This document shows positions 11,654 through 22,685 of a DNA stretch of 64,000 bases, in pieces. The stretch comes from Lentisphaera araneosa HTCC2155 (GTDB lineage Bacteria; Verrucomicrobiota; Lentisphaeria; Lentisphaerales; Lentisphaeraceae): positions 248,001 through 312,000 of the forward strand of contig NZ_ABCK01000001.1 in NCBI RefSeq assembly GCF_000170755.1. Direction: 5' to 3'. The translations under genes and the position numbers were made by a program. Positions within the stretch are counted from its first letter, which is position 1. The number at the start of each line of letters is the position of its first letter. The notes under the pieces are model-generated. The model saw only the letters and a program-made list of their open reading frames with translations. It did not search any database and was not told where the DNA came from.

Positions 11654-12055
11654 TCATTCCAAAGCTCGCGTGCTCCAATTTGAGGCAACTGCTACGTTCA
11701 TATACCATTCACGAGCACTTAATGACTCAATTTTCATTAAGATCCTGTAGTGGGTCCATCCCAATTCGAGACGCACTGCGTCTCGAATTGGAAACGTAAG
11801 ATAAAACTGCCTCATCTTCCTTAAATTAGTAAGATCAAAACCCTTACCAAAACGAGTCGTCAAATCTTTAGCTAAATCCTTCAAAACAGCCTTGCCGTAC
11901 TCAGCTCTGGCTTCACCACCCTGCTCATCTTCAACTATTAGTTGGCCAATCCCCCAATAAGTTAAAACCAGCTTGGAATTAACGTGCCGAAGAACTTCTT
12001 GTCGGGAAGAACTTATTAGATCACTAATGCGTTGAAAGAGATCCTCTGAAGATTT
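11654..12055 (-). pseudogene. DUF1016 (YhcG-type) nuclease, N-terminal remnant
   Basis: The minus strand reads LISSSRQEVLRHVNSKLVLT, YWGIGQLIVEDEQGGEARAE, RFGKGFDLTNLRKMRQFY and LGWTHYRILMKIES, a good match to the N-terminal domain of DUF1016/YhcG proteins, whose C-terminal half is a PD-(D/E)XK nuclease. No start codon precedes the recognisable part; an in-frame stop lies just upstream at 12056-12058. The downstream end runs directly into the REP-bearing RAYT-flank copy at 11655, so the nuclease half is gone. It lies 13 bp after the helicase gene on the same strand and may once have belonged to that defence operon. Confidence 0.85.
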
Positions 12056-12067
12056 TTAGGAGGCTGA

Positions 12068-15000
12068 TTACCCAATTCGCCTAGCCCATGGTAGTATTTT
12101 AGCTGGCATCGGATGAATAAGTTCCCATACAAAAGATATCGGTTTAGATCCTTCATGCTTTTGATATTTTAGGGGACCTAGAAAGACATAAGGAGATGTT
12201 AAACCATTAGGCAATTTATTTTTGTCTCTAACAAATAATAATGGTGTATAACCTTTTTCTTCGTGATTTATATACCTTTGCCCAGTTGCTGTTTCTACAC
12301 CTGTAGCATTCTGTGATTGCCAATGAAATAATCGCTCAGTAATTGCGTAATCATCGTACATAGTCGTCGGGGAATAATCTTCCTCACTTTTATTTACATC
12401 TACAAAAAAGACATCTAATTTACGCTCAGAAACATGGCACACCCCTTCGCGTGATGAGTGTGATTTTTCAAAACTTCCCATTCCCAAAGCTAATAAAATC
12501 TGCTCTCGACTGTATGAAGCATGTAAATTAAGTAGTCCTGTCCAAGGAAATCTTTTTTTCGGGATACAAGGTATTTGTTTCTGCCTCCACTGAAATAGCT
12601 CTTTTAGATCATTTTTTAACCCTAGGTGTTTTGCAACAAAATTTTCCGCTTCTTCCAAAGTTGTAACTACTTTTTTCTGCCCCCACAAAAGCGCATGAAG
12701 CAAGGATCTAACATCTTTACCTGAATCGTGGCCATCCATAATTCTTATAAATTCATTTAATAAAAACTGATCATCAGTTAACAATAAATTCCTTAAACCT
12801 TTTGCTAATTTCTCTTCAATTTTTTTATCTATACTTGAGTGATTATTCTCAATAAGATTTAAATGAGTCGACGGTAATCCTTTTTTATAAATTTCATCCG
12901 GACTATCTAATAAAAATCTATCAATAATTTCGATTAAACTTGGACGTCGTTGCAGTTGAGTATGTAGATCTCTGAGTTCATTGATCATCCTTTTACCTCT
13001 CAACATATTTGTCGCTTCACGTATATTGTTAAGAACATGTTCCTTTGCTTGCTTTTCTAAGTGTATTAAACAACCTGAAGGCAAATAAGGCATGTCTTTA
13101 ATTATTTGAGTATCAATACGTAATTCCGGTCGTGAACTAATTGATTGAAACCTTTTTGCAAAACTAAAGTTTTTATTTTGAGCTGCAATAAAATCAAGAA
13201 TAGTTAATTGAGCCTTGTTGGGATGTAAACGTAAGCCTCTTCCTAATTGTTGTAAAAACACCGTTAAACTTTCAGTAGGTCTTAAAAACAAAACCGTATT
13301 AACTTCTGGTATATCCACACCTTCATTAAACAGGTCGACTGTAAATATAAAATATATATCACCTTTCAATAATTTATGCTGAACAGAATTCCTCAATTCA
13401 ACTGGTGAATTTGCGCTTAGTGCAACACTAGGGATATTATTCTCGGTAAAAAAACTGGCCATAAACTCGGCATGAGCTACGCTCACACAAAAGGCTAATC
13501 CCTTAATAAGGTGCCATTCATTTAGGTAATTTTGGCACTGAGACATAACCCAAGATGCGCGACGGGTATTGTTTACAAACAATTGATTTAAATCTTTAGT
13601 TTGATAGCTCCCCGTTTGCCAAGACAGGCGAGAATAATCAATATCAGAAGAGTCAGGAACCCCATAATAATGAAATGGACACAATAATGACCGTTCTATG
13701 GCTTCAGGCAAGCGAATTTCATGAGTAAAGGCCCCATCAAAGTCATTTCGAATATCAAGCCCATCTTGTCGTTCTGGCGTTGCTGTTAGGCCCAATAAGG
13801 ATTTCGTTTGTATATGATCTATCACATTTTGATACGAATTAGCAGATGCATGATGTGCCTCATCAAGTACCACATATTCAAAATGGTTACTATCGAACTT
13901 ATTGAGTTTTTGACTATTCCATGATTGCACTGTACAAAATAAATATTTATCCTGAGTCGGTCTATGTTTACCAGTAAGTAAATCTCCAAAACTCCCATCC
14001 CGTAACACTTGCCTAAAGGTATTCATTGATTGTTTTAAAATTTCTTCGCGGTGAGCTATAAATAACAAACTGGGTAAAGATCCTGATTTTTTACTGTAGT
14101 TAAAATAATCAAAAGCGGCAATCATTGTTTTCCCTGTTCCTGTGGCAGCGATAACTAAATGCTTAGTTTTTCCTATATCTCTTTCGGCTTGGATATCTTC
14201 TAAAACAATTTTCTGATAATCATATGGATGTAAATCAAAAAAAGTCTCAATCCTCTTAACATCTGTAGACTGCTTTTCCGATTGAATAGCTTGTTCAAAG
14301 CGTTTAATATCACCTTTACTACATTTTGAAAATTCTGTATCATCTTCCCAATGAGATTCAAAACTTGCGAGCGTTTGTTTCCATAAGTATTCCAATTCGT
14401 ACTGGCTAATTTTTGCAGTCCACTCTAAACCTTCATCTAAAGCTGCTTTGGATACGTTAGCTGATCCTATATAAGCTGAACCAAACCCTGTCTTTCTATG
14501 AAAAATGTACGCTTTAGCATGTAGTCGAGTTCTCTTAGTATCGTATGAAATACGAACTTCCGTATTTGGAAGCTCAAGCAATGCTTCTATTGCTTTAACA
14601 TCTGTCGCGCCCATATAAGATGTTGTTGCTACACGAAGACGAGGTGTTCCGTCATCATTAGCCACTGAACAAAAATCTTTAAGCACATCTAATATAGGTC
14701 GTAAACCACTCCATTTAATAAATGAAACTAATAAATCTGCTCTGTCACAAGTCCTAAGTTCTTTTTTTAACTGAGATTGAAGAGATGGAGTACGGGATGA
14801 CCCAGTTAAAAGTGCTGAGTTAGCTAAAGCTGTATCAGGTTTTTCAGGTACAAGTTTTAAATCCTTTTGTGAAGGCGTCAAAATGAAGTCTAGGGAGCTA
14901 GAGTCGATGATTTTTAGTGAAGAATGCGCTTTAACCTCACTCTCAAAGTTATTAACAAACGTTTCTAGTTCCTGAGACCACAACTCTGGCTTTTTTTCAT

Positions 15001-15184
15001 TAAATAATGAAGAGAACCGTTCTGCAAAAAAACTAGCAAATTGTTCTTTAATTTGAATATAAGCTTCATCTTTACTAAGCTGGCGCCATTGTGCCTGATC
15101 TGTCAAACCTGATTTTTCAATTGCCTCTTTTAAAGCTTCTGTATGAATTAAATCATATAATCCAGGTCCCATTATTTCTGCCAT
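12068..15184 (-). CDS. PLD-nuclease / SF2 helicase / DUF3427 fusion, probable defence protein
   Basis: A 1038-residue protein. Domains in order: a helical N-terminus; a phospholipase D/HKD-type nuclease module (residues about 130-260, with HAKAYIF at 222 and GSANVS near 241); an SF2 DEAD/DEAH helicase (Walker A AATGTGKT at 346-353, DEAH at 441-444, GLTATPER near 466, FNEGVDIPEVNTVLF near 625 and QQLGRGLRL near 650); and a C-terminal DUF3427-type region to the end. Related PLD-helicase proteins are found in prokaryotic defence islands. It starts 30 bp after the stop of the methyltransferase-HNH-S24 gene, with GGAG before the ATG, so the two form an operon. It may unwind or translocate invading DNA and cleave it; the target is not known. 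Confidence 0.85.
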   Translation of the reverse strand: MAEIMGPGLYDLIHTEALKEAIEKSGLTDQAQWRQLSKDEAYIQIKEQFASFFAERFSSLFNEKKPELWSQELETFVNNFESEVKAHSSLKIIDSSSLDFILTPSQKDLKLVPEKPDTALANSALLTGSSRTPSLQSQLKKELRTCDRADLLVSFIKWSGLRPILDVLKDFCSVANDDGTPRLRVATTSYMGATDVKAIEALLELPNTEVRISYDTKRTRLHAKAYIFHRKTGFGSAYIGSANVSKAALDEGLEWTAKISQYELEYLWKQTLASFESHWEDDTEFSKCSKGDIKRFEQAIQSEKQSTDVKRIETFFDLHPYDYQKIVLEDIQAERDIGKTKHLVIAATGTGKTMIAAFDYFNYSKKSGSLPSLLFIAHREEILKQSMNTFRQVLRDGSFGDLLTGKHRPTQDKYLFCTVQSWNSQKLNKFDSNHFEYVVLDEAHHASANSYQNVIDHIQTKSLLGLTATPERQDGLDIRNDFDGAFTHEIRLPEAIERSLLCPFHYYGVPDSSDIDYSRLSWQTGSYQTKDLNQLFVNNTRRASWVMSQCQNYLNEWHLIKGLAFCVSVAHAEFMASFFTENNIPSVALSANSPVELRNSVQHKLLKGDIYFIFTVDLFNEGVDIPEVNTVLFLRPTESLTVFLQQLGRGLRLHPNKAQLTILDFIAAQNKNFSFAKRFQSISSRPELRIDTQIIKDMPYLPSGCLIHLEKQAKEHVLNNIREATNMLRGKRMINELRDLHTQLQRRPSLIEIIDRFLLDSPDEIYKKGLPSTHLNLIENNHSSIDKKIEEKLAKGLRNLLLTDDQFLLNEFIRIMDGHDSGKDVRSLLHALLWGQKKVVTTLEEAENFVAKHLGLKNDLKELFQWRQKQIPCIPKKRFPWTGLLNLHASYSREQILLALGMGSFEKSHSSREGVCHVSERKLDVFFVDVNKSEEDYSPTTMYDDYAITERLFHWQSQNATGVETATGQRYINHEEKGYTPLLFVRDKNKLPNGLTSPYVFLGPLKYQKHEGSKPISFVWELIHPMPAKILPWARRIG

Positions 15185-15214
15185 AAGTCATTCTCCATTA
15201 ATTTCTCCTAGTCA

Positions 15215-17395
15215 TCATAAAACCTTCACAAATACACCAATGACCGATATTTGTTCACCCTCAGAGATTTCAATATTCTGATAATCTGGATTGAGGGCTT
15301 GGAGGCTAATAGATCCATGTTGCCAACCCTCTTCGGTTTGAGACTTTTGTGAATGATACTTTTTAACTGTTAGGCGACCACCATCGTTGGGATCGCTATC
15401 ATCATGGAGGTAAAAGAGCATGATGCGATTTTGTCGTGAGCCAGCCAATGCCGATCCTTTGCGGAAAACGCAAAGTGAGTTATCGGGGATTTTGGGCTCC
15501 ATGGATTTTCCCACAACGCGCAAAACAAACATATCTTGATTCATTCTTGGGATTTGGCATTTAATCCACTGTTGAACCAAATCATCTTGCTGAAACAAGT
15601 TCAAGTTCCCTGCAGTGGCCTTCAGATCATAATAAGGCAGGTAATCGACAAATTGTTGCTCTGGTTTAATCTCTTGTGAATCTAAGATGATAATGTTCTT
15701 TGCTATTACTTTTTGTCCTGTGCTTTGTTTTACAGCTGGTTGCCAACGTTCAACACCACGCTGAATCGCAGTAATCTCCACAGATTCATGGAAGAATGAA
15801 AAGAGTTTATTTTGCCAATTGGGAGTAAAGCTCTCGCCACTGACTCGTTTCATTTCATAAGCAAAGCGTTCGGGGTAATTTACTTGAGTTTGTTCCCAGT
15901 AATTGATTATGCAGTCCTTGCGAGCTACTAAGAGCTGATGACTTGGGAGCTTATCACGCTTATGGTTATTGACTTTTTCATCGCTGGGCAAAAGATTCCA
16001 AAGGTCATTATTTTTCCACAGGGCATAAGGAATAGCGTGATCCACAGCAAATTTATCTTTGAGGGTTTTTCCTGACCAAACGCATTCTTTTACATCAGAT
16101 TTTTTATACAAAGAGCGTACTGCCTGGACATCTCGATCTGGATCGCAATTAACTAGAAGTAGATCAATAACTTGGCTGGGGCGTAATTGTTGATTCGAGA
16201 GCTTGGCCGTAAGTTCAGCCCAACGAAGAATTGTGGCATCTTGAATCCAAGGCCCCATGATAGTGAGTTCTCGCCAAACCTCCACAGGCATGTAGACTTG
16301 TTTATCACGGTAAGAGAAAACCGTTTGTCCCGAATTAATGCCACCAGAGTAAGTAACGGGGCCCGCCTTAATTGTGTTATTTAACTTAGAAATAAGTTTG
16401 CTGTAAACAGAGCGGACTTCTTTACTGAGTTGGCCTGATTTTCTAGAGATCAAAAAGGCATTTAATCCACCCGAAGTTCGATAGTGAGCTATAAGCTGAT
16501 TAAGTAAAGCTCGAAAAGCAATAGAACGAGTTGAGTCAATTCTATCTCCGTATTTTTGAGGTATATAAATTTCACTTTCACAGATTGGCCAATAATATTC
16601 GAGCCATTTCTCAGAAATGGACTGAATAGGAAGGGATACACGTTTATCGAAATGCCACAGGACTGATTTATGTTGACTCTGAGCTATATCGGCCAAAGCT
16701 CGAAACAAGGCTAATTTATAAGTAGTATCCTTTTTATCTTTATTGAGTACCGATTCTATTTTATCAAGCCCCCTGCTCCCATCCATATTCTGTAGACGAA
16801 AAGATAAAATATGCCATTTGCGGTGATCGCGATTCAGGGAGTCGGCGTTGGTCCAGTGATTAAGGTTTTGAAAGCCAAGGCGTTCGAGAAGTAGTTTGAG
16901 TTTTTCGGGATTGAGCTGATTAAAGAGGCGCCCTTTGGAGTCGCGTTGATCAATTATGGTGGGATCTTCGTCAGGAATAGAAATTAAGAGCGAGCCATTT
17001 TCTTTGAGGATGCGACGGAGGTTAAAGCAAGCATCGAAAAATTGTTCGCTGGGAAGATGCATAAGCACGGCTGAACAAAGAAGTCCATCAAATTGATCAT
17101 CGTCGAATTCAGCTAAGTTGGGAAGTGATGACAGCCTTAAATTATCTTCCAAATCGGGGATATTTTTTGCACATTGCGCAAGCATTGCAGATGAAGAATC
17201 GCAGCCAAAGGCATGACAGCCCATTTGCGCTAAACGCAAAAGGTCTCGACCTGATCCACAGCCGATATCTAGAACATAATCACCGGACTTGAAAACTTGG
17301 GGGAAGTAATCGCTCACCCCGCCTTCGCAAGTCCAATAGCTTGCGCTCACTGACTCGGCGTTAGCTTGATAAAATTCTTGTGTTGCTTGGTCCAC
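15215..17395 (-). CDS. Methyltransferase-HNH nuclease-S24 peptidase fusion
   Basis: A 726-residue protein starting at GTG with AAGGG upstream. Residues about 1-200: class I SAM methyltransferase (VLDIGCGSGRDLLRL at 41-55, LLCSAVLMHLPSEQFFD near 105-121). Residues about 220-420: a helical region that I do not recognise. Residues about 435-490: HNH-type nuclease (CVW at 438, then VDHAIPYALWKNNDLWNLLP at 451-470 and NNHKRDKLPS). Residues about 585-726: LexA/UmuD-type S24 domain with catalytic Ser631 in GKSMEP, Lys678 in LTVKKY, and a likely Ala595-Gly596 cleavage site in DLKATAGN. No helix-turn-helix was seen, so this is not an ordinary repressor. First gene of the operon with the PLD-helicase. 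Possible role: damage- or phage-triggered restriction-like effector. Confidence 0.85.
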   Translation of the reverse strand: MDQATQEFYQANAESVSASYWTCEGGVSDYFPQVFKSGDYVLDIGCGSGRDLLRLAQMGCHAFGCDSSSAMLAQCAKNIPDLEDNLRLSSLPNLAEFDDDQFDGLLCSAVLMHLPSEQFFDACFNLRRILKENGSLLISIPDEDPTIIDQRDSKGRLFNQLNPEKLKLLLERLGFQNLNHWTNADSLNRDHRKWHILSFRLQNMDGSRGLDKIESVLNKDKKDTTYKLALFRALADIAQSQHKSVLWHFDKRVSLPIQSISEKWLEYYWPICESEIYIPQKYGDRIDSTRSIAFRALLNQLIAHYRTSGGLNAFLISRKSGQLSKEVRSVYSKLISKLNNTIKAGPVTYSGGINSGQTVFSYRDKQVYMPVEVWRELTIMGPWIQDATILRWAELTAKLSNQQLRPSQVIDLLLVNCDPDRDVQAVRSLYKKSDVKECVWSGKTLKDKFAVDHAIPYALWKNNDLWNLLPSDEKVNNHKRDKLPSHQLLVARKDCIINYWEQTQVNYPERFAYEMKRVSGESFTPNWQNKLFSFFHESVEITAIQRGVERWQPAVKQSTGQKVIAKNIIILDSQEIKPEQQFVDYLPYYDLKATAGNLNLFQQDDLVQQWIKCQIPRMNQDMFVLRVVGKSMEPKIPDNSLCVFRKGSALAGSRQNRIMLFYLHDDSDPNDGGRLTVKKYHSQKSQTEEGWQHGSISLQALNPDYQNIEISEGEQISVIGVFVKVL

Positions 17396-17511: not shown

Positions 17512-17589
17512 TATTTCTGTACAACACAGATCATTTGTCATACAGATCCAATTCTTAAGTAAATAAGTTCAATTTTGACCGTTTTAGGG

Positions 17590-18660
17590 ATGCGGAGCAG
17601 AGCTCCTGAGTTGACGGACTAAGTTCCTGAGTTGACGCGCTAAAGCGCTGAGTTCACGGACTGAGTCCTGAGTTGACGCGCTAAAGCGCTGAGTTCACGG
17701 ACTGAGTCCTGAGTTGACGCGCTAAAGCGCTGAGTTGACGAAGCGGAGCTTCTTAGGTTACAGGCTTAAGGTCATTAACCACAGATTTAACAGATGGGGC
17801 AGATAGAGAGCAATTTTTAATTGACCTGCCAGTCGGGCGGATGAAGAACAAAAGATATCGAACCACGGAAGGCACAGAAAAACACGGAAGGAGAGCAATT
17901 TTTAATGGAAAGTCAAGATCAAGAGAAGTTTAACCACAGATTGAACAGATGGAGCAGATTTATTTCTTGGGACGGTTCCACAGTTAGACAAATCCACGAT
18001 TGGACAATTTAAAACTGATGACTGCAGGGCGAAGCCCGATCTGCAGCGAATGGAATGAGCGATCTGCAGTGAGCTTGCGAACGATCTTGCAGTGGAACAG
18101 TCTTACAGCGCAGCGGTCTTCCCTGTCCGCAATTGCCGAGCTGGAGCTCAGCGGTCCCAGGTTTTAGGTGATAGATGCCGCATTGAATGCGGGGCTCCCA
18201 GCTTTTAACTGATGACTGCCCTCTTCTAATTCTCTTGTCTCTTTCAGTGCAGCGGTCTTTCAGTGAGCCTGCGAACGATCTTGCAGTGAGCAACGCGAAC
18301 GATCTTGCAGTGAGCAACGCGAACGATCTTGCAGTGAGCAACGCGAACGATCTTGCAGTGAGCAACGCGAACGATCTTGCAGTGGAACAGTCTTACAGCG
18401 CAGCGGTCTTCCCTGTCCGCAATTGCCGAGCTGGAGCTCAGCGGTCCCAGGTTTTAGGTGATAGATGCCGCATTGAATGCGGGGCTCCCAGCTTTTAACT
18501 GATGACTGCCCTCTTCTAATTCTCTTGTCTCTTTCAGTGCAGCGGTCTTTCAGTGAGCCTGCGAACGATCTTGCAGTGAGCAACGCGAACGATCTTTCAG
18601 TGAGCCTGCGAACGATCTTGCAGTGGAACGGTCTATCACCTCAACTGCCTAACTTTCCTT
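17590..18660. repeat. Hairpin-cassette repeat array A
   Basis: No gene. In 17590-17755 the linkers GAGTTGACG or GAGTTCACG alternate with small palindromes that differ in sequence: GCGCTAAAGCGC, GGACTGAGTCC, GAAGCGGAGCTTC, GGAGCAGAGCTCC. In 18010-18650 the linker is built from GATCTTGCAGTG or GATCTGCAG. A block of about 230 bp is present twice at a 290-bp offset (about 18075-18306 and 18365-18596). Between these lies a tandem of a 24-bp unit, GATCTTGCAGTGAGCAACG plus CGAAC, at about 18282-18382. Long frames here (for example LTARSFALLTARSFA) are products of the repeat. Confidence 0.85.
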
Positions 18661-18729
18661 ACACTGAAGAACTCATTAAGTTTGTTTTTAGAGAGAATTC
18701 ACACAGTTTTTCATAAAACTTGGAAGTCA

Positions 18730-19809
18730 ATGAAAAGCTTTGCCACATCCTATGAAAATATCCTAGATTTAGTGGATAACTATAAGCCTGATCTATATGG
18801 TAGAACGAGGAATTATCTCAATGGTGCCGTTTCGTATTTGTCTGCTTATATCTCGCGCGGAATCATTAGTACTCGCACTGTTTATGATTCTTTGATCAAA
18901 CGAGGTTATGATTTAGAAAAAATCGAGAAGTTTGTTCAAGAACTAGCTTGGCGAGATTACTGGCAGAGTCAATGGAATTATCATGGCGCTAAAATTAATC
19001 ATGATCTACGGCATTCGCAAATGGCGTATAACAAGCATGGCATGCCTAGTCGATTAGTTGATGAAAAATGTAGTATACAAGTGTTTAACACTGCAATAAA
19101 ACAGCTTAAGACTACTGGCTACCTCCATAACCATATGCGTATGTATTTAGCGATGAGCACCTGCAATATTGGGGGCTACCATTGGCATGACCCTGCTCGA
19201 TGGATGTATTATCATTTGATTGATGGTGATTGGGCTTCAAATGCTTTGAGCTGGCAATGGGTAGCAGGTTGTCTGAATGGCAAGAAGTATATTGCTAATC
19301 AAGAGAATATAAATAAGTATTGTGGGAGCTTAGAAGAGCAAACTTTTTTGGATAAATCCTATGATGAATTATCGCAAATTTATTGCCTGGATGAATTCGA
19401 TAACTCCATCAAACTCGATCTTAAATGGCAGGCACCTAATCAATTGAATCCCGAAAAACTGATATATGATGATTGTCTTATTTTCAATTACTATAACCTT
19501 GATCCCCAATGGCGAAAAGAACAAGTCGCTAATCGAATTTTACTGCTCGAAGCAGAAGTCTTTGAGAAATACCCGGTTTCTCCTCGAGTAATGAATTTCT
19601 TTTTACAACTAAGTAGAAATATTCCTGACTTAATTTTATTCACGGGAAGCTTTGCAGATTTGCGTGCTCTGTGTAAGGGAAAGCTTTATTATCGTCAACA
19701 CCCCTTAAATCAATATGAGGGTATTGAGGATAGGCCCCTACGCTCTGTGATATACAAGGTGACTTTACATCATTTTTTAAGTACTGGAAGCAATGTAAAA
19801 AAGCTCTGA
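18730..19809 (+). CDS. Photolyase/cryptochrome-type FAD-binding protein, unusual domain order
   Basis: A 359-residue protein from the first good ATG (18730, GGA upstream). Residues about 50-210 form the photolyase FAD-binding helical domain: FVQELAWRDYWQSQW, TGYLHNHMRMYLAM, HDPARWMYYHLIDGDWASN and LSWQWVAG. There is no N-terminal antenna domain. Instead, the part after the FAD domain reads LIFNYYNLDPQWRKEQ, NRILLLEAEVFEKYPVSPRV and DLILFTGSFADLRAL, which resembles the alpha/beta domain normally found in front. A second photolyase gene starts 3 bp after its stop, so they are co-transcribed. The role is presumably light-dependent DNA repair or light sensing. Confidence 0.72.
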   Translation: MKSFATSYENILDLVDNYKPDLYGRTRNYLNGAVSYLSAYISRGIISTRTVYDSLIKRGYDLEKIEKFVQELAWRDYWQSQWNYHGAKINHDLRHSQMAYNKHGMPSRLVDEKCSIQVFNTAIKQLKTTGYLHNHMRMYLAMSTCNIGGYHWHDPARWMYYHLIDGDWASNALSWQWVAGCLNGKKYIANQENINKYCGSLEEQTFLDKSYDELSQIYCLDEFDNSIKLDLKWQAPNQLNPEKLIYDDCLIFNYYNLDPQWRKEQVANRILLLEAEVFEKYPVSPRVMNFFLQLSRNIPDLILFTGSFADLRALCKGKLYYRQHPLNQYEGIEDRPLRSVIYKVTLHHFLSTGSNVKKL

Positions 19810-19812
19810 TCA

Positions 19813-21258
19813 ATGAAAGAGATTAATGTCGTTTGGCTGAAACGTGATTTACGTTTAAATGACCATGCTTGTTTGGCTGCTGCCGAAGCATCTGAACTCC
19901 CCTATTTGATTATGTATTGTTTTGAGCCAAGTTTGATGAATGCACCAGATGTCTCAGAGAATCATCTAAATTTTATTTACCTATCACTTATGGAGATGCA
20001 GACGAAACTTGCGCCTTTTAATCGCCCTCTATACATCCTACATGCCGATGCAACTCAAGCCTTGGGATACATCCAGAAAAAATATCAAATAAGCACTCTC
20101 TTTGCTCATCAAGAGCATGGTACGGCTCGTACGTGGAAACGCGATCGCCAGGTCATCGATTTCTGTTGGCAAGAAGAGATTGAATTACTGGAAGCCGAGC
20201 ATAGTGGAATTCAAAGGGGTATACAAAATCGCGACCATTGGGATAAGGCCTGGTTTTCCTGGCATAAGACTGATATCGTACGCAACAGTTATTCTATCAG
20301 CCCTTTTAATTTTGATAAGAGTTTATTTCCCGCTGCATTACAATTTAAAAAGACTTTCAAAACCTACCCAAAACAAATGCAAGCTCCCGGTGAGAATACG
20401 GCTCACCACTACCTAAAAAGTTTTTTGGCTGAGCGTGGTAAAAATTACCATAGGTTCATTTCTAAACCAAGTGAAAGTCGTAAATCCTGTGGTCGCTTAT
20501 CCCCCTACTTGGCTTGGGGAAATGTAAGTTCTCGGCAAGTTTATCAATTGGTCAAAGCATCACCAAAATACAAAGATAATAAACGGGCTTATTCGGGCCT
20601 ACTAACTCGACTTAAATGGCGGAGTCACTTTATCCAAAAATTTGAAGTTGAGTGTTCGTATGAGTATCTCTGCCTTAATAAAGGCTATGAATTAATGTCT
20701 CTTGATTTTAATGCTGAATTTATTGAGGCCTGGAAAGATGGAAAGACGGGCTACCCCTTGGTAGATGCGTGTATGCGTTGTTTGCATGCCACGGGATGGA
20801 TCAACTTTCGTATGCGCGCCATGCTCACAAGCTTTTTTTGTCACCACTTAGCTCAGGATTGGCGAGACGGGGTTTATCATTTAGCAAAATTATTCTTGGA
20901 TTATGAACCAGGAATTCACTTCCCTCAATTTCAAATGCAGGCGGGAACTACCGGAATCAATACAGTACGTATATACAACCCAATTAAACAGTCCATGGAT
21001 AATGATCCCGAGGGAGAGTTTATTCGACAGTGGATACCAGAACTCAAGGATCTTAGCAATGACGAAATTCATGAGCCATGGAAAATCGAAATTATGGAAG
21101 CTAAGATGAAGGGGTACACAAATTTACATTTATATCCTGCTCCCATTATCGACATAAAAGATACTTATAGCTTAGCTAGGGATCGTATTTGGGGCTTGCG
21201 TAGTCATGCACTCGTGAAATATGAAAAGATAAGAATTCTAAGAACTCATACTCGGTAG
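19813..21258 (+). CDS. Cryptochrome/photolyase family protein
   Basis: A 481-residue protein with the full family layout: N-terminal alpha/beta domain ([20 protein letters not shown] at residues 6-25) and C-terminal FAD-binding domain (SSRQVYQLV near 236, [20 protein letters not shown] near 314, MRAMLTSF, and [20 protein letters not shown] near 370). The class (CPD, 6-4 or cryptochrome) cannot be fixed from the sequence alone. The second gene of the pair with the FAD-binding protein, spaced by 3 bp. It ends just before hairpin-cassette array B. Confidence 0.9.
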
Positions 21259-21704: not shown

Positions 21705-22685
21705 TTATTTAAACAAATAAGAACTCATTCGTCCCGAGCCACGTTTTTCTAATAGCTCCGCAAGAAGGGCTTTCTTCAGATCGCGACTGGCACTCGCAGT
21801 GGAGAGGCTAGGAAATAGCTTCAAGTAATCAGCTCGTACAAATTCCCTTTGGTGAAAACTTTCTTTGGCAAGATTGATTCTAGAATCAAAATCATGAGCT
21901 TTCATGTCCGCTTTTGCTTCATATTCCTTGAGACTTGCTAGAATTTGTTTCAGCATAAACTCAATAAAGACAGTTGATTCACCTGCCTGATCACAAATTT
22001 TCAGGACGCGGTAATATTGCTCTTGATGACTTTTGATGAGCGATTCTACCGGGAGGTACTCAAACAGGGGAGATAATTCCATTAGCTTGAGCGTTTGCCA
22101 CAAACGTCCCATGCGTCCGTTACCATCACTAAAGGGATGAATAAACTCAAGTTCATAATGAAGAACGCAGCTCTGAATGAGCGCATGATCTTCATGAGAG
22201 CGAACATAGCTAAAGAGATCATTTAATAAACCAGGTACATTTTCGGCTGGAGGGGCAATATGAACAATATCATTTCCTTTTTGGATCCCCACTCCCCCAC
22301 GTCGAAATTTGCCTGCATCTGCAATGAGACTCGTCATGAGGATTTGATGTGCTTCGAGGAAGTCCTTCACTTGGGCACAATCAAAGTTATGAACTTGCTC
22401 ATAAAGTTTGACTGCATTACTGACTTCCAAGATATCTTTTTGTGGCCCTAAAACCGTCTTGTCATCTATAAAGGCTGTGACCTGATCTAAGCTTAGTGTG
22501 TTGCCTTCTATGGCCAAGGTGGAGTAAATTGTTTTTATGCGATTCTGGCGGCGCAATTGTGGTGAAGTTTTTGCACTCAAGGCCATACCCTCTAAACGTC
22601 CTAAGTGATGCATGACTTCTGCAAGTAAACTCAATATCGTTGGCGTGATTTCATAAGGCGGTTTCATAAGATCACTATAAAGCAT
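21705..22685 (-). CDS. Fic-family protein (AMP transferase type)
   Basis: A 326-residue protein with the complete Fic motif HPFSDGNGRMGR (catalytic His183). It also has an N-terminal inhibitory-helix motif TLAIEGN at 56-62, fitting the S/T-x-x-x-E-G/N pattern of self-inhibited (class II) Fic proteins. A C-terminal winged-helix-like segment (FVRADYLKLFPSLSTASASR) is common in this group. These enzymes usually transfer AMP to a protein hydroxyl; the target is unknown. ATG 22685 is used, with an in-frame ATG at 22667 possible. A perfect 24-bp palindrome covers the leader. Confidence 0.9.
   Translation of the reverse strand: MLYSDLMKPPYEITPTILSLLAEVMHHLGRLEGMALSAKTSPQLRRQNRIKTIYSTLAIEGNTLSLDQVTAFIDDKTVLGPQKDILEVSNAVKLYEQVHNFDCAQVKDFLEAHQILMTSLIADAGKFRRGGVGIQKGNDIVHIAPPAENVPGLLNDLFSYVRSHEDHALIQSCVLHYELEFIHPFSDGNGRMGRLWQTLKLMELSPLFEYLPVESLIKSHQEQYYRVLKICDQAGESTVFIEFMLKQILASLKEYEAKADMKAHDFDSRINLAKESFHQREFVRADYLKLFPSLSTASASRDLKKALLAELLEKRGSGRMSSYLFK

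Follow-up and report, generated by a model that had tools for sequence, protein, structure and literature searches.

It has long been asked how, once its DNA is damaged, a bacterium keeps restriction enzymes from destroying its chromosome, and damage-inducible restriction alleviation was once termed an SOS function, although that of EcoKI in Escherichia coli proved to be SOS-independent (PMC11109961). A two-gene locus of Lentisphaera araneosa HTCC2155, a member of the class Lentisphaeria in the GTDB phylum Verrucomicrobiota, raises the question in a particular form: could a LexA-like peptidase domain fused to a nuclease tie a DNA-targeting defence system to the damage response? The locus lies at positions 12068–17395 of a 64,000-nucleotide window (assembly GCF_000170755.1, contig NZ_ABCK01000001.1, positions 248,001–312,000 of the forward strand), and the description below also takes in a gene remnant behind its second gene. 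Gene A encodes an S-adenosylmethionine (SAM) methyltransferase joined to an HNH nuclease and a C-terminal S24 peptidase domain; gene B, 30 bp behind it on the same strand, encodes a PLD nuclease joined to a helicase and DUF3427. Both open reading frames lie exactly where a preliminary description had placed them, the domains that it named are matched by Pfam, and the key motifs (Ser631, Lys678, the HNH core, HxK and Walker A) are present; the domain and profile matches at the locus are above chance level. With confidence that stops a little short of even, we favor the view that this is a restriction-type DNA-targeting defence cassette, in which A carries its S24 tail as a LexA-type off-switch.

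Alignment indicates that the S24 module of A has every residue needed for self-cleavage of the LexA/UmuD type. LexA, UmuD and CI have in common an Ala-Gly or Cys-Gly bond and a Ser-Lys dyad (PMC10020695), and in an alignment of 63 tails related to that of A the catalytic serine is present in all 63, the lysine in 59, and an Ala-Gly or Cys-Gly bond in 61 of the 62 that are complete. The glycine and the serine are 34–47 residues apart, mostly 35, as they are in A (A595-G596), and the corresponding distance in E. coli LexA is 34 (G85 to S119) (PMC10020695). Cleavage at the predicted bond would leave an end of the form -AAA, -LAA, -IAA or -VAA in 42 of 61 tails. RecA, LexA and a UmuD-like protein are encoded in the same genome, LexA (207 residues) by a separate gene, and lexA and recA (recA and lexA promoters L220 and L221 in our numbering of loci) have directly upstream a shared element, ACTAACTAATA / TTAGTTAGT, that could be the LexA box of this organism.

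A profile built from 13 tails was run on genome samples of four phyla, many of them draft assemblies; the labels of the Pseudomonadota, Bacteroidota and Bacillota samples are inferred from their centre genomes. Among 388 Verrucomicrobiota genomes, 24 yield strong hits (E below 1e-28), 27 in all. Restriction- or defence-type proteins, whole or as remnants, carry 25 of the 27 if a TnsA-like protein (L178) is included. The bearers comprise the Type I proteins HsdR (L048) and an HsdS-like subunit (L049); an AlwI-type Type II enzyme (L047) beside a D12-like methyltransferase reading frame, its probable cognate, assigned from N-terminal sequence and not by family search; Type III Res proteins (L177, L180); SauUSI-like enzymes (L044, L051, and a remnant in L054); a DruE-like protein (L174); an HNH protein (L050); four methyltransferase-HNH proteins; and ten Schlafen-group-3-type helicases, of which L172 was checked with Pfam, L053 and L172 with PADLOC, and the others are assigned through a shared N-terminal sequence. 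Another strong hit is an unclassified fragment at a contig end (L052). The one clear bearer that is not obviously a nuclease or helicase is a circularly permuted YpsA (SLOG) protein (L176:5563-6546). Weaker hits in this phylum are mostly to short reading frames of regulator size.

The profile also finds tails in 8 of 299 Pseudomonadota and 10 of 248 Bacteroidota genomes, and in none of 250 Bacillota genomes. All 18 of the Pseudomonadota and Bacteroidota hits are on restriction-type proteins (ten run on Pfam, the other eight assigned from a profile or a common N-terminus), a result that is not circular because no seed of the profile came from those two phyla. A plasmid collection gave one match to the S24 tail alone, adjoining a Schlafen-type helicase reading frame in Halomonas. 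In a tree of the tails, counting well-supported branches only, the label must change at least four times for methyltransferase-HNH, at least five times for SauUSI-like and at least three times for Schlafen-type enzymes, and the tail has thus moved repeatedly between enzyme types; since many homologues of the tailed enzymes have none, it is an add-on outside catalysis. The tail subfamily is a mobile C-terminal add-on, borne almost only by restriction and defence enzymes, in Verrucomicrobiota, Pseudomonadota and Bacteroidota. Far from being peculiar to the Lentisphaera system, the tail is a general accessory of restriction enzymes. A literature search that left most subscription papers outside turned up no account of restriction enzymes with S24 tails, so that novelty is provisional, and the text of a 2026 BREX survey mentions neither 'LexA' nor 'S24'.

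Pfam places Methyltransf_25 at residues 41–134 of A, HNH_4 at 446–484 and Peptidase_S24 at 592–723, with no N-terminal DNA-binding winged helix of the LexA type among its domains. The start codon GTG is consistent with the homologues, whose sequences open at the equivalent position (MDxxTxxYxxxA), and the AlphaFold2 model has a mean predicted local distance difference test score (pLDDT) of 88.6; a PDB fold search with A returned methyltransferases only, because that domain dominates. Across 40 sequences the HNH core (D452, H453, N467, N476, K479) does not vary, and the SAM motif hardly does. A scan of the collection confirmed 188 relatives of A, the best 80 of which were made into loci; the 75 readable targets comprise 29 methyltransferase-HNH proteins, 26 with HNH alone, 17 methyltransferase-HNH-S24 and 3 HNH-S24, and a further S24-bearing relative (L065) is hidden by an overlapping reading frame. 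Those with the tail, roughly one in four of the best 80, are nearly all from Verrucomicrobiota as GTDB defines the phylum. Plasmids carry some of the relatives that lack S24, of which one pair adjoins BREX in Acinetobacter. No relative of A, with or without the tail, was found in the phage records or viral contigs searched. We note that a PAPS-reductase gene matching SspD (of the DNA phosphorothioation type, E 2e-109) overlaps the start of a methyltransferase-HNH-S24 gene at L039:692-1507 (the same as L066), and that a similar SspD-like/methyltransferase-HNH-S24 pair, cut by the contig end, lies at L043:9726-10942.

Protein B matches the PADLOC mREase_IV profile over positions 16–937 of 945 (E 7e-202) and the SauUSI structure 7clg in sequence (E 1.3e-93); its H222, K224 and GSxN are invariant among relatives. 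In the SauUSI structure the DUF3427 region provides SRA-like target recognition (PMC7913695), and this region of B matches 7clg only weakly when compared directly (i-E 0.45). The AlphaFold model of B, built from only four sequences, has a pLDDT of 47. On these matches B has the architecture of a SauUSI-type Type IV enzyme, and by itself represents no new kind of enzyme.

A and B are each single-copy in their genome and both are absent from two congeneric genomes, a patchy distribution that argues against a housekeeping role. Relatives of A adjoin BREX, SspD-like, DUF2075-S24 and HNH genes, which, like the patchy spread, is typical of defence genes. The earlier view of the pair as a restriction-like system is borne out, and A-type and B-type parts are linked in eight other loci. 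Three separate genes encode the methyltransferase, the HNH protein and the PLD-helicase-DUF3427 protein in L046; a methyltransferase gene overlaps one for a SauUSI-type PLD-helicase-S24 protein in L044; the order in L068 is PLD-helicase-DUF3427, NUDIX, methyltransferase-HNH; L123 has PLD-helicase-DUF3427 followed by HNH; and in L107 PLD-helicase and methyltransferase-HNH genes are convergent. In L197 and L199 a methyltransferase gene adjoins or overlaps one for PLD-helicase-S24, with or without DUF3427, and L196 encodes a single chain of 1286 residues, methyltransferase-PLD-helicase-S24-DUF3427. L198, with a methyltransferase followed by HNH-S24, has a related arrangement. The fusion and the recurrent pairs are thus evidence that the methyltransferase, nuclease-helicase and S24 parts work together. 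A neighbourhood of methyltransferase-HNH genes with SauUSI-like genes does recur but is not obligatory, such a neighbour being present in only 3 of about 80 methyltransferase-HNH loci (L068, L107, L123), and only 25 of 388 Verrucomicrobiota genomes have a SauUSI-like gene. The gene neighbourhoods point to an association of A and B that is real but optional; a fixed two-gene system is too strong a description, as both families usually occur without each other.

We propose that B acts in a Type IV-like manner, such that DUF3427 would recognize modified DNA, the helicase translocate and the PLD nuclease cut, while A would supply another nuclease, of the HNH kind, to which a SAM methyltransferase is fused. 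The S24 tail would stay on A in an undamaged cell; upon damage to host DNA, RecA would become activated and stimulate the cut at Ala595-Gly596, and the tail would be removed, inactivating the A nuclease by analogy with LexA and possibly also exposing a C-terminal degron for ClpXP. With A shut off, the chromosome would be spared during repair, a built-in restriction alleviation. The domains, the intact catalytic and scissile residues, the mobility of the tail with its near-confinement to DNA-cutting defence enzymes, and the RecA, LexA and UmuD-like proteins of the genome are observed; the residues, the near-confinement and these three proteins point to control by DNA damage. We infer self-cleavage, RecA as its trigger, the off direction and an anti-phage activity. 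The same mobile tail has been grafted onto enzymes of Types I–IV, DruE, Schlafen-type and methyltransferase-HNH proteins, and it is close to an even chance, in our judgment, that it is a general module through which damage-activated RecA switches restriction at the protein level. The distribution of the tail suggests that bacteria may wire anti-virus restriction enzymes to a DNA-damage switch; if so, the self-cleaving tail would be a direct and transferable link between RecA and restriction, and very different defence enzymes would have one regulatory module in common.

The preliminary description took the self-cleaving module to be a trigger, and all of the cleavage residues are indeed there, but the word presumes activation and an off-switch fits at least as well. 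The serious rival is nevertheless a switch in the on direction, in which the tail would keep A latent until phage-inflicted damage, acting through RecA, led to cleavage and the freed nuclease attacked phage and host DNA alike in an abortive infection. Cleavage activates UmuD, a member of this peptidase family, and the tailed HsdR, Res and AlwI bodies are complete without the tail, so its removal could release a working enzyme; we nonetheless consider this unlikely, because a classical Type II enzyme beside its probable methyltransferase (L047), like HsdR and HsdS, must be active before damage, and because a cut of the LexA type parts functional regions from one another and would expose the -xAA end, which resembles a degradation signal. 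A latent ClpX signal in LexA, which the predicted ends resemble, was reportedly described by Neher in 2003 (as cited in PMC4231737). It is also possible, though we rate it as slightly less likely again, that the tail is no damage sensor at all, and dimerizes or matures the enzyme (with constitutive cleavage or none) or answers some other signal. In LexA, CI and UmuD the C-terminal S24 domain does form dimers, four of the tails have Arg for Lys, and IrvR, a LexA-like protein, is reported to act outside the RecA paradigm (PMC7101444); however, almost every tail, in three phyla, has retained the three cleavage features jointly, which is more than dimerization alone would need. Several points count against the off-switch that we favor. 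The Arg replaces the catalytic Lys in L196–L199, all from Pseudomonadota, with Ser and Cys-Gly kept, and these tails are possibly slowed or dead switches; L179 has no Ala/Cys-Gly bond; the terminal -xAA may reflect only the protease's own preference; the element found at lexA and recA is absent upstream of A, in a comparison of the lexA, umuD, recA and A promoters that are too few for a conclusion; a methyltransferase partner stands beside only 3 of the 25 Verrucomicrobiota SauUSI-like genes (in the window, L044 and L046), most being alone; and restriction alleviation in E. coli is independent of SOS (PMC11109961).

Whatever the tail does, A and B might be chance neighbours in a defence-prone region that act separately. 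Both families are mostly found apart, and yet their adjacency recurs in unrelated phyla, the parts are fused into one chain in L196, and the two Lentisphaera genes are on the same strand with a 30-nucleotide gap; we think coincidence improbable, if still worth reckoning with. Far less credible is classical restriction-modification, with the methyltransferase of A, present beside nucleases, protecting host DNA: the closest PDB matches in sequence and fold, as well as the best families, are small-molecule methyltransferases, and DNA methyltransferase families fall below their cut-offs (17.4 against 26.7 bits for N6_N4_Mtase). In relatives, moreover, the slot beside the effectors holds other small enzymes, namely NUDIX (L068, L107, L215-217, L219, L258, L266), MazG-like proteins at Schlafen-type loci (L041, L193, L212) or a methyltransferase-HIT fusion (L116 and other Bacteroidota), and in L267 a segment resembling that fusion sits on a PLD-helicase protein. 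Because NUDIX, MazG and HIT are nucleotide enzymes, the substrate of the A methyltransferase may by analogy be a nucleotide or other small molecule. The coordinates of the features are as follows.

Features of the locus, in window positions; all are on the minus strand where a strand is given
Feature	Position	Strand	Basis
Gene A, methyltransferase-HNH-S24 protein, 726 residues	15215..17395	-	Open reading frame with GTG start, Pfam domains, relatives, AlphaFold2
Class I SAM methyltransferase domain of A, residues 1–205, small-molecule-like fold	16781..17395	-	Methyltransf_25 E 1.5e-15; small-molecule methyltransferases matched in the PDB by sequence and by fold
Middle region of A, residues 206–430, conserved in all methyltransferase-HNH relatives	16106..16780	-	Homologue alignment
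HNH nuclease motif of A, residues 438–484	15944..16084	-	HNH_4 8e-6; invariance in 40 sequences
S24 (LexA/UmuD-type) peptidase domain of A, residues 592–726	15218..15622	-	Peptidase_S24 E 7e-12
Predicted scissile Ala595-Gly596 of A	15608..15613	-	Aligned against 62 further tails plus LexA and UmuD of this genome
Catalytic Ser631 codon of A (VGKSMEP)	15503..15505	-	Tail alignment
Catalytic Lys678 codon of A (LTVKKY)	15362..15364	-	Tail alignment
A-B gap, 30 nucleotides, GGAG motifs, operon-like arrangement	15185..15214	-	Open reading frame positions, sequence
Gene B, SauUSI-like PLD nuclease-helicase-DUF3427, 1038 residues	12068..15184	-	Open reading frame, Pfam, PADLOC, 7clg match
PLD nuclease domain of B, HxK = H222/K224, GSxN from 240	14348..14593	-	RE_NgoFVII 6e-7; motifs
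Superfamily 2 (SF2) helicase of B, Walker A ATGTGKT 347–353	13226..14233	-	ResIII 2e-36; motif
DUF3427 of B (SRA-like target-recognition region in SauUSI)	12095..12541	-	DUF3427 E 5e-22; PMC7913695
DUF1016 (PDDEXK) gene remnant, outside the mechanism	11702..12055	-	DUF1016_N E 2.9e-36; interruption outside this stretch

The DUF1016 remnant lies behind the pair on the same strand, as had been noted at the outset. On the other side, dense short tandem and direct repeats (24- and 41-nucleotide units and a 239-nucleotide duplicate) fill window positions 17583–18650, between gene A and two adjacent photolyase/cryptochrome-family genes (18682–21258, plus strand), the first of which has only a partial FAD-binding match. 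A Fic protein is encoded about 4 kb upstream (21705–22685, minus strand; Fic E 3e-19) and matches the defence-library entry SoFic of PADLOC (2.9e-44).

Comparison with known systems shows where the locus departs from each. The tail of A resembles LexA, UmuD and lambda CI in its Ser-Lys dyad, Ala-Gly bond and spacing, but A has no DNA-binding repressor domain and carries the module at the C-terminus of a nuclease. Residues 1–560 of A are like those of a methyltransferase-HNH family that is annotated as 'class I SAM-dependent methyltransferase' and belongs to no named system, although only some 25% of its best 80 loci have the S24 tail. B has the same order of PLD nuclease, SF2 helicase, coupler and DUF3427/SRA-like target-recognition domain as SauUSI of Staphylococcus aureus (PDB 7clg); SauUSI, however, works alone as a single polypeptide, whereas B has A as a partner, and E126 in the HxK(x)4E motif of SauUSI is a His in B. 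E. coli is known to alleviate restriction by having ClpXP degrade HsdR, and the outcome proposed here, removal of a restriction subunit when host DNA is at risk, would be that of EcoKI alleviation, which differs in being independent of SOS and in requiring no tail that cleaves itself (PMC11109961, PMC4231737).

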